From Pseudomonadota bacterium (lineage in GTDB: Bacteria > Pseudomonadota > Gammaproteobacteria > Steroidobacterales > Steroidobacteraceae), in contig JAKARC010000005.1 of NCBI GenBank assembly GCA_021822385.1, positions 1-64,000 of the forward strand: DNA of 64,000 nucleotides, read 5' to 3'. Every line of letters begins with the position of its first letter. Position 1 is the stretch's first letter. Below are positions 46,876 through 49,480 of the stretch, one piece after another. The notes beneath the pieces are model-generated. The model was not told where the DNA came from, searched no databases, and was given only the letters and a program-made list of their open reading frames with translations. Made by a program: the position numbers and the translations under genes.

Positions 46876-47901
46876 CTAGAGCAGCTCGGCGATCTGCACG
46901 GCGTTCAAGGCCGCGCCCTTCAACAACTGATCCCCGGCCACGAACAGCGCGATCGAGCGGCCGCTCGGATCGGACAGATCCGCGCGAATGCGGCCGACCA
47001 GAATCTCATCGGCACCCGAGGCATCCACCGGCATGGGAAAGTAGTTGCGCGGCCGATCATCGACCAGCTTCACTCCTACGGCCGACGCGACCAGCGTCCG
47101 CACCTCCTCCGGGGTGATCGGCCGCTCGCACTCGAAATTGATCGCGATCGAATGCGCACGCAGCACCGGCACGCGCACGCAGGTCGCGCTCACCCGGATG
47201 GCCGGATCACCATAGATCTTGCGGGTCTCGTGCAGCGCCTTCAGCTCCTCCTCGTTGTAACCGCTGTCCGGATCAACGGCCGAATTGTGGCTGAAAAGGT
47301 TGAAGGCGTAGGGGTGCGGCAGGACGCGCGGAGTGAATGGTTGCCCGGCGAGATAGGCGCCGGTCGCCGCGCGCAGCTCCTCCATCGCGGCGGCACCGCC
47401 GCCCGAGGCTGCCTGATAGGTCGAGAGGATCAGGCGCCGGATTGGATTGCGGCGGTGTATCGGCCAGAGCGGCGTGATCGCGATGATGGTCGAGCAGTTT
47501 GGGTTGGCGATGATGCCGCGATGCGTCTTGACCGCCTGTGGGTTGATTTCCGGCACGACGAGCGGCACGGCCGGATCGCGCCGGAATGCCGAGGAGTTGT
47601 CGACGACGATCGCACCCTGCGCGACGGCAAGCGGTGCAAAGCGCTTGGAAATGCCACTGCCGGCAGAGAACAACGCAATGTCGATGCCGCCAAAGGAATT
47701 CTCCTCAAGTGCCTCGACCGGCAGTTGCTCGCCGCGAAACGGCAGTGTCCTGCCCGCCGAGCGCGCCGAGGCGAACAGACGCAGCTCGGCGAGCGGGAAC
47801 GAACGCTGTTCGAGACAACGGAGCATCTCGACACCGACGGCCCCGGTGGCCCCGACGACCGCAACCACCGGCGCGGTGCCCGCTGGATGACCCAATGACA
47901 T
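46876..47901 (-). CDS. asd: Aspartate-semialdehyde dehydrogenase
   Basis: 341 residues; NADPH-dependent reduction of aspartyl phosphate, the branch-point enzyme toward lysine/diaminopimelate, threonine and methionine. VGATGAVGVEMLRCLEQRSFP binds NADP, IIANPNCSTIIAITPLWP holds the catalytic Cys, and TYQAASGGGAAAMEEL and the late RAHSIAINFECE histidine are present. GGAG lies 8 bases before the ATG. The gene stands alone, and its leader carries a candidate attenuator with lysine codons (see the leader ORF and terminator entries). Confidence 0.96.
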   Translation of the reverse strand: MSLGHPAGTAPVVAVVGATGAVGVEMLRCLEQRSFPLAELRLFASARSAGRTLPFRGEQLPVEALEENSFGGIDIALFSAGSGISKRFAPLAVAQGAIVVDNSSAFRRDPAVPLVVPEINPQAVKTHRGIIANPNCSTIIAITPLWPIHRRNPIRRLILSTYQAASGGGAAAMEELRAATGAYLAGQPFTPRVLPHPYAFNLFSHNSAVDPDSGYNEEELKALHETRKIYGDPAIRVSATCVRVPVLRAHSIAINFECERPITPEEVRTLVASAVGVKLVDDRPRNYFPMPVDASGADEILVGRIRADLSDPSGRSIALFVAGDQLLKGAALNAVQIAELL

Positions 47902-47924
47902 GTGCAGACTCCAATCACACGGAT

Positions 47925-47959
47925 AAAAAAGGGCCCCGACGGTCGCTCCGGCGGGGCCC
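47925..47959 (-). terminator. Intrinsic terminator (attenuator) just upstream of asd
   Basis: On the reverse strand the arms GGGCCCCG (47952-47959) and CGGGGCCC (47931-47938) form a perfect 8-bp stem, extended by three more pairs after a mismatch, and are followed directly by six T (47925-47930). The T-run ends only 23 bp before the asd start. The only reverse-strand ORF ahead of it is the 24-codon leader, so it is placed to control asd rather than to end another gene. Confidence 0.88.
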
Positions 47960-47988
47960 TGGGTATTTCGTGCTGTAACCGCGAACCG

Positions 47989-48063
47989 CTAGCGCGCGCG
48001 CATCCCCAGAGCCCGGTCATGGGGCATCTTCAGGATCTTGGCGCACTTTTTTATCGCAGTCAT
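47989..48063 (-). CDS. Putative asd leader peptide with four lysine codons
   Basis: A 24-codon reading frame on the reverse strand, starting MTAIKKCAKILKM and ending in RAR: four of residues 5-12 are lysine (AAA, AAG, AAG, AAG). It ends 29 bases before the terminator. Its codons 17-20 (GGGCTCTGGG) pair with CCCAGGGCCC, which overlaps the terminator's first arm, giving an antiterminator. No good Shine-Dalgarno is visible before the ATG; a TTTACA-17-TAGCTT promoter-like pair just upstream would start the RNA close to the ATG, so translation may be leaderless. Function is inferred from structure. Confidence 0.55.
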   Translation of the reverse strand: MTAIKKCAKILKMPHDRALGMRAR

Positions 48064-48739
48064 GATGCGCAGAAGCTACCCGAAGCGCCAGGCCCTGTAA
48101 AGGCGGTTTGCCCGCGCCAGGGACGATTTTGTCCTACCCCCACAAGCTCCTGAGGAAAGAATGAGCATGTGATCGGAGGGGTTCCCCCTGCGCTTACCGT
48201 ATGCCGTAAGCCCGCGGTGGGATGGGGTCCGGGGGATGCACGGAGAGATCGAGGTGCGGCGGATGCAGCGCAACGAGGAGCACGCTATCACGCCTGGATG
48301 CAAGCGCACCCTGACCGGGGGCGCTGCTGCTGCGACCCTGAAGTGCCCGGTCGGCTGGCGCTAGCAGCGGCCGCACACGCGGTTGCATCTGCTTGCCAAC
48401 AGCACACGGATTTGCGTTTTGCCTGATTGGCACCGAACATCGCTTCGCGCACGTTGACGCTGTGCGAGCGATACCGCGGGGGAGATTGGCTCGAGGCGTC
48501 CGGCCATCCGATCGCATTGCTCGCGACCTTTCTAGATCCGCAGCATCATGGCAGCACGCGCTAGCGGGCTTCCAATTGCACGTATGTCGAGGCCACGCGC
48601 AGGCGCTTTTGGGTCAAGCCCATCCGGGCCGCCGTACGCTCATGGAGTGGCAAAACTGATGTTCACCGCCGCCCCGATCGGCACCGCGTGCCGAGCCTAC
48701 GGATCATCCGCGCTGTGGTCCTCCGCATCGGTCCGTAAT
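48064..48739. other. asd upstream region and unassigned sequence
   Basis: About 675 bases with no recognisable gene. The first 100 bases presumably hold the asd promoter (reverse-strand TTTACA and TAGCTT 17 bp apart, about 48075-48105). ORFs 48169-48659 on both strands have no family resemblance. An inverted repeat GCTTAC/GTAAGC lies near 48192-48211. The 3' part may belong to the transposon remnant that follows. Confidence 0.5.
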
Positions 48740-49480
48740 CGCTCGCTCAGGCTCTGCAACGCTGGACGGCACAGTTCGCTGCGCACGATTCCATCCTGGC
48801 CCTCGATGGCAAGACCCTGGCAGCGCGACCGATCCGAGCACCTTCAAACAGACCCACGAGATAAAAGCCGCAATCCCGCTGCTCGCGGGGCTCGACCTTC
48901 GGGCGGAGGACATCACCGCCCATGCGCGGCTGACCCAACGCGTCATCGCCGAGTTCATCTGCCGCCGCGGCGCGCACTACCACTTCATCATCAAGGGCAA
49001 TCGACCGGCACTGCTGACCGACCGCGAGCGCTATTTTAAGGCCCACACCAGTGCGCACTTCACCGAGACCTCCTGCGATCATGAGCGCATCGAGACCCGC
49101 TCCATCTGGGTCAGCGATGCCCTCAACGGCGGTCTCGACTTCCCCGAGGTCCATCAGGCCTGCCTCATCGAGCGGCAGGCCCTGAAGAGGAAAACTGACA
49201 CACTCTCCGGCGAACTCGCTTACGACATCACCAGCCGTCCGGCCGCTCAGGACAGCCCCCAGCGCCAGCTCGAGATCGACCGTGGCCGTTATCTGCTTGA
49301 ATGGAACTTCGACGAGAGTCGTGGTCGTGTCCGCACCGGTCGCGGCCAGCAAAACGTCGCGCAGCTGCGCAGCTGGGCTCTCTCGGTCAATCCGCCTAGC
49401 CTGCCACCCCCTCGCCGCGACTCTGCTCAAGCTCAACCGCAATGTTCGTTCGCGCATTGATGACCGGCTCATGACCGGCA
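48740..49480 (+). pseudogene. ISAs1-like DDE transposase remnant
   Basis: Recognisable in three frame pieces: SLAQALQRWTAQFAAHDSIL then LALDGKTL (first catalytic Asp), after a frameshift and deletion THEIKAAIPLLAGLDL ... RGAHYHFIIKGNRPALLTD and ERIETRSIWVSDALNGGLDFP, LEWNFDESRGRVRTG, and after another shift LAATLLKLNRNVRSRIDD. This is the order of ISAs1-type transposases. The TADA motif reads TAHA (second Asp lost) and the usual SIENSCH segment is deleted. No terminal inverted repeats were found by eye. The 297 bases after it show no gene. Confidence 0.8.

Follow-up and report, generated by a model that had tools for sequence, protein, structure and literature searches.

In the window, by which we mean the whole stretch of 64,000 nucleotides that was analysed, the gene asd is preceded by a short reading frame and an intrinsic terminator. 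This raises the question of whether asd is controlled by a ribosome-mediated transcription attenuator and, if so, which amino acids provide the signal. The sequence-only reading had proposed an attenuator that responds to lysine codons. Assignment of the gene as a true aspartate-semialdehyde dehydrogenase follows from its score above the cut-off of the asd_B model. Aspartate semialdehyde is the precursor of lysine, threonine, isoleucine and methionine, and Asd marks the branch point to lysine/DAP and the cell wall, threonine, isoleucine and methionine. The features of the locus are as follows.

46876..47901, minus strand: asd, aspartate-semialdehyde dehydrogenase, the putative controlled gene (NCBIfam TIGR01296 (asd_B) and NF011456 above cut-off; Pfam PF01118 and PF02774)
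47925..47959, minus strand: intrinsic terminator GGGCCCCGCCGGAGCGACCGTCGGGGCCC followed by T6, with 8 perfect and 3 inner pairs (−22.9 kcal/mol)
47954..47963, minus strand: 3′ arm of the predicted antiterminator, CCCAGGGCCC, overlapping the terminator
47989..48063, minus strand: predicted leader peptide ORF MTAIKKCAKILKMPHDRALGMRAR, 24 codons with Lys, Ile, Thr and Met codons, based on the sequence and the alignment of relatives
48005..48014, minus strand: 5′ arm of the predicted antiterminator, GGGCTCTGGG, within the leader ORF
48011..48025, minus strand: candidate protector hairpin GCCC(7 nt)GGGC (−5.1 kcal/mol)
48025..48030, minus strand: putative control pair of Lys12 (AAG) and Met13 (ATG), whose homologue in relatives is Lys–Lys or Lys–Thr
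48073..48078, minus strand: predicted −10 element TAGCTT of the leader promoter, with a 17-nt spacer from the −35 element and 9 nt before the leader ATG
48096..48101, minus strand: predicted −35 element TTTACA of the leader promoter, found in nearly all asd upstream regions of the genus, including those without a leader

Shortly upstream of the promoter, at 48740–49400, there is a transposase-like remnant with broken frames, which we take to resemble an ISAs1-type transposase.

The 24-codon ORF with lysine at codons 5, 6, 9 and 12 is present as described, on the minus strand, and it also carries Thr2, Ile4, Ile10 and Met13, on which the sequence-only reading was silent. The terminator has the claimed perfect 8-bp stem and T6 and ends 23 nt before the asd start codon (ATG at 47901). 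The proposed antiterminator pairs over ten positions with one G–U, and GGGCCC is common to it and the terminator arm. When asd was searched in 60 relatives and the upstream DNA was read and its promoter–ORF layout tabulated, ORF, terminator and antiterminator were found together upstream of asd in 22 of the 34 genus relatives whose upstream DNA was readable; the leader was absent from 12 asd regions of the genus. Examples of the genus peptides are MFPKKRTITLKKPGGGALGDCTR, MTPMKTRTITLKKPCGALGECVR, MTISIIKRTITLKKPGGLPETRAR and MLMAMTKRTTIKAKKPRGLPEAHAR. Among these relatives the terminator is paired in 98% of the cells, with three pairs showing compensatory change on both sides (0/500 shuffles), and a T-run follows it in most. 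The antiterminator is paired in 93% of the cells and has four pairs with compensatory change. Compared to codon shuffles, 20 of 23 genus leaders have an antiterminator below 0.05. Thus the alignment of relatives reveals a short Lys-rich ORF upstream of asd with terminator and antiterminator arms that both covary, and the attenuator logic originally claimed is supported. The protector hairpin had been proposed as a CCCC/GGGG pairing. That pairing is possible, but the version found in relatives is GCCC/GGGC; as AAGCCC/GGGGCT it is paired in 89% of the cells in 23 relatives, among which no covariation of this hairpin was found. A role as protector is plausible.

A promoter upstream of the leader had been overlooked. 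Its −10 element is legible in 21 of the 22 leader-bearing loci of the genus and ends 6–10 nt before the ATG. Because this distance leaves little or no room for a Shine–Dalgarno sequence, the leader mRNA is predicted to be leaderless, which we consider very probable with a start site placed by promoter spacing. A leaderless start would account for the lack of a clear ribosome binding site, earlier regarded as the weak point of the proposal. The promoter call is supported by the loci that have no leader: at these genus loci the same promoter lies, in most cases, directly before asd. In two of these (L022 and L041), where the leader was lost, remnants of the terminator are still there.

In view of these features the mechanism that we favour is as follows. 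Transcription would start at or within a few nucleotides of the leader ATG, as the promoter spacing suggests, and the ORF would be read as a leaderless mRNA. A shortage of charged tRNA for Lys, Thr, Ile or Met would cause the ribosome to stall in the stretch of codons for these four amino acids (K/T/I/M), chiefly at the Lys–Lys pair just before the antiterminator. Such a stall would leave the GGGGCTCTGG arm free to pair with the emerging 5′ half of the terminator, and with the antiterminator formed, RNA polymerase could proceed into asd, as anatomy and covariation suggest. The terminator would form when a ribosome reaches the stop codon and covers the GGGGCTCTGG arm, perhaps aided by the protector hairpin.

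In folding of the partly transcribed leader, a stall anywhere up to the Lys–Lys pair left the antiterminator pairable and a stall further on did not; the K/T/I/M run ends at this same point. K/T/I/M make up 61% of the stall-effective codons compared to 4% of the remaining codons. With the whole terminator transcribed, the equilibrium favours the terminator in 21 of 23 leaders without a ribosome and in 19 of 23 with a ribosome at the stop codon; a stalled ribosome lowers this preference, variably among relatives. In three relatives (L016–L018) the state with the ribosome at the stop codon still permits the antiterminator. Since the equilibrium mostly favours the terminator and some stop states allow the antiterminator, the completed-translation half of the model would be partly kinetic. 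The locus shares with attenuators of the his, trp and thr class a codon-rich ORF, an intrinsic terminator, a mutually exclusive antiterminator and control codons at stall-compatible positions. We estimate the probability that this is a real and conserved ribosome-mediated transcription attenuator of asd at roughly 0.85–0.9.

The arrangement extends beyond the genus. An RNA model built from the leader (R1) and run on 296 genomes of the order matched the leader in further Steroidobacteraceae genera, Povalibacter uvarum among them, and nearly all strong matches precede asd. Outside the family, the weak R1 matches inspected are plain terminators (L159, before tRNA genes, L161 and L164). In a scan of named genomes, asd of the window subfamily was preceded by the same layout in Bradyrhizobium, Reyranella, Roseomonas, Acidisphaera, Phenylobacterium and others, with leaders such as MFTTTKRTTKTTTAFGARGGVRA and MTRFATKTTTTKTTTFGGPARTCA. 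The alphaproteobacterial terminator likewise covaries; the Bradyrhizobium antiterminators are mostly no better than codon shuffles. With a second RNA model (R2), 44 of 385 Alphaproteobacteria gave a match at E 1e-5, not all of them at asd. In a tree of 145 Asd proteins (FastTree, with many weakly supported forks) the leader clusters with the asd subfamily of the window, with repeated losses. Two asd paralogues per genome were observed in six of the genomes searched and in several alphaproteobacterial genomes; the pairs consist of one window-type, leader-associated asd and one of canonical type, about 45–50% identical. In both classes, leader ORFs frequently close with a GTGCGCGC/GCGCGC stretch at the stop codon (47989–48003 in the window), with an Arg codon CGC invariant in the 23 genus leaders.

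Related leaders occur before other alphaproteobacterial genes, and their codon content tracks the gene that follows. R2 matches include Lys-type leaders before a dapA-type gene, MITKSCALVSKKGPHPGTSECCAR in Bradyrhizobium and MTSGRPLVAKAKKAPLAGTGDRCPR in Inquilinus limosus, and a Lys–Lys pair is conserved in the dapA-type leaders of two further genomes; these could possibly act as lysine-only attenuators. In these dapA-type upstream regions (L177/L243, L244, L183 and L246) the Lys-codon leader ORFs are accompanied by terminators. The same model found a Thr-type leader, MKRLNASCTTTTTTTAMGGSLAVGMRA, before thrS in Alphaproteobacteria and a related leader containing Leu and Val before ilvC. The gene is presumably thrS, judged from recognisable sequence in a short piece that gave no Pfam match. 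Thr-rich, probably leaderless ORFs with terminators precede thrS at seven alphaproteobacterial loci. Similar leaders before thrA, a lysC-type fusion or dapA were not seen in the genome of the window or its genus. Before canonical-type asd of other Alphaproteobacteria (L272, L264 and L273) a short ORF was observed that finishes in a cluster of Thr and Lys codons and is followed by a terminator.

The codon content of the asd leaders bears on the nature of the signal. In the genus, K/T/I/M account for 52% of the first leader codons in frame and for 10% and 6% in the two alternative frames. Eight of codons 2–14 of the window leader belong to this set. Background ATG-ORFs of the genus loci have on average 2.0 of 13 and reach at least six in only 1 of 447 cases, so the window leader exceeds chance; the genus leaders have 6–10. 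It could be argued that only stalls at lysine count and that the Thr, Ile and Met codons are passengers. The window leader has four Lys and one Thr, Lys is the commonest residue of the genus leaders (27% of codons 2–14), and alignment column 14, which is Lys12 in the window, holds Lys in every one of the 23 genus leaders. Lys is the sole member of the set fixed at a position in the genus, so that the part played there by Thr, Ile and Met is less certain. However, in neighbouring column 15 (K 17, T 4, M 1, one gap) Lys gives way only to Thr or Met, and the other columns swap the four residues among themselves, with some outsiders, Thr and Ile being replaced by Lys and Met among others. At K/T/I/M positions 12 of 22 distinct non-synonymous variants stay within the set compared to 4.3 expected (P ~2e-4, when distinct variants are counted as independent). 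The alphaproteobacterial asd leaders, chosen as the most K/T/I/M-rich upstream ORF and therefore inflated in this score, contain mostly Thr (45%) and only 17% Lys. A response to lysine alone is thus unlikely, and the signal is probably the aspartate family of Lys, Thr, Ile and Met. Lysine remains part of the proposed signal, but not as its only component.

Explanations in which the leader does not work as an attenuator were also considered. Asd is a lysine riboswitch target in other bacteria, and the lysine riboswitch (L-box, RF00168) regulates genes of the lysine pathway, in some bacteria through premature termination. Control of a lysine-pathway gene is common to both, but the mechanism proposed for the asd leader would need translation. 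A metabolite-binding RNA of this kind, independent of translation, appears highly improbable: a frame of about 25 codons with two competing helices falls short of the size of an L-box, the window has no Rfam match at gathering score, and the RF00168 covariance model gave no match in the window or 30 relatives while it detected the riboswitch in four control genomes. The leader could be an ordinary small-protein gene, or encode a trans-acting peptide, that merely lies before asd with its own terminator. In favour of this, the S. meliloti leader peptide peTrpL is reported to act in trans (PMC7298713), and SEP5 of S. meliloti is made as a peptide (PMC10117765). Against this, the leader peptide is unconserved save for its amino-acid class, and the overall pN/pS of 1.2 among genus leaders shows no ordinary purifying selection on the peptide as such. 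Moreover, the antiterminator arm overlaps the terminator and covaries, and most strong matches with a checked downstream gene precede asd, thrS, a dapA-type gene or ilvC, which leaves this explanation very unlikely. Finally, a chance ORF may lie beside a plain terminator that stops transcription from upstream. The window antiterminator on its own is not significant compared to codon shuffles (0.11), and terminator-like sites in the scan are about as many as in shuffles. Yet the layout is repeated in 22 genus relatives and in a second class, where the helices covary and the codon class is kept, which makes chance scarcely credible.

The Rfam family Atu_C8 (RF02502) was rejected as an identity for the leader, as it scored 17.5 bits (E 0.98), below the gathering score of 50. 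It represents a different attenuator, since the genes that follow it encode acetolactate synthase and have Ile/Leu/Val leader peptides: nearly all inspected matches (L277–L296) directly precede such genes and have Ile/Leu/Val leader ORFs, for example MKKALILVGRRVGKAV. What Rfam lists as an sRNA looks more like the transcript of an ilvI attenuator than like a free sRNA.

Among known systems, the E. coli thrABC operon has the thrL attenuator, and Vitreschak et al. (2004) reportedly predicted a Thr/Ile/Met-type thrA attenuator in Pasteurellales. These share with the asd leader a multi-amino-acid leader of the aspartate family and competition between terminator and antiterminator. They differ in that they control thrA instead of asd, have no Lys control codons and possess a leader with a Shine–Dalgarno sequence. 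A leaderless leader-peptide attenuator is described for trpL/rnTrpL of S. meliloti (PMC10117765), and leaderless leader ORFs in S. lividans include leuL, trpL, ilvL, thrL(thrS) and metL (PMC8079986). They have in common with the asd leader a short leaderless ORF with end-product codons, often followed by a terminator, but concern other genes and amino acids, with no Lys or asd case among them.

The nearest precedent is SEP5 of Sinorhizobium meliloti, a sORF that contains six Thr and three Lys codons and lies in the 5′-UTR of an ‘aspartate dehydrogenase’ gene; its translation is shown by Ribo-seq and Western blot, and it is called ‘possibly a leader peptide’ (PMC10117765, Microlife 2023). That gene is probably asd, so that SEP5 and the window leader share a Thr/Lys-rich sORF in the asd 5′-UTR. 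The passages on SEP5 call it conserved only in Sinorhizobium and give neither an antiterminator nor a mechanism (PMC10117765). As described there, its K/T cluster occupies the 3′ end of the ORF, like that of L272, L264 and L273, whereas window-type leaders have their K/T/I/M run in the 5′ half, carry a KK(P) control pair, are predicted to be leaderless and belong to a different asd subfamily. The SEP5-like and window-type leaders could be either homologous or convergent. The sequence-only reading knew of no lysine-codon attenuator for asd, and apart from the SEP5 remark we likewise found no asd or lysine-codon attenuator among the 5.4 million open papers searched. This type of asd leader recurs in many other bacteria and, it seems, has hardly been described.

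On balance we lean towards a widespread class in which one leaderless ORF pools the charging of Lys, Thr, Ile and Met tRNAs to set asd expression. It would span Steroidobacterales and Alphaproteobacteria on one asd subfamily, perhaps with a separate origin on canonical asd, and with sister leaders that read a single signal (Lys before dapA-type genes, Thr before thrS). The swaps among the four residues that occur across relatives form a natural series from which the response-setting codon could be identified, and the asd attenuator is testable in hosts that can be cultured, such as Povalibacter uvarum and Bradyrhizobium. By reading four tRNAs in one ORF, a branch-point enzyme could respond to several end products with no need for a regulatory protein. 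If true, this would amount to a codon-tuned, gene-by-gene regulatory code for one pathway, which would include the first lysine-codon attenuators.
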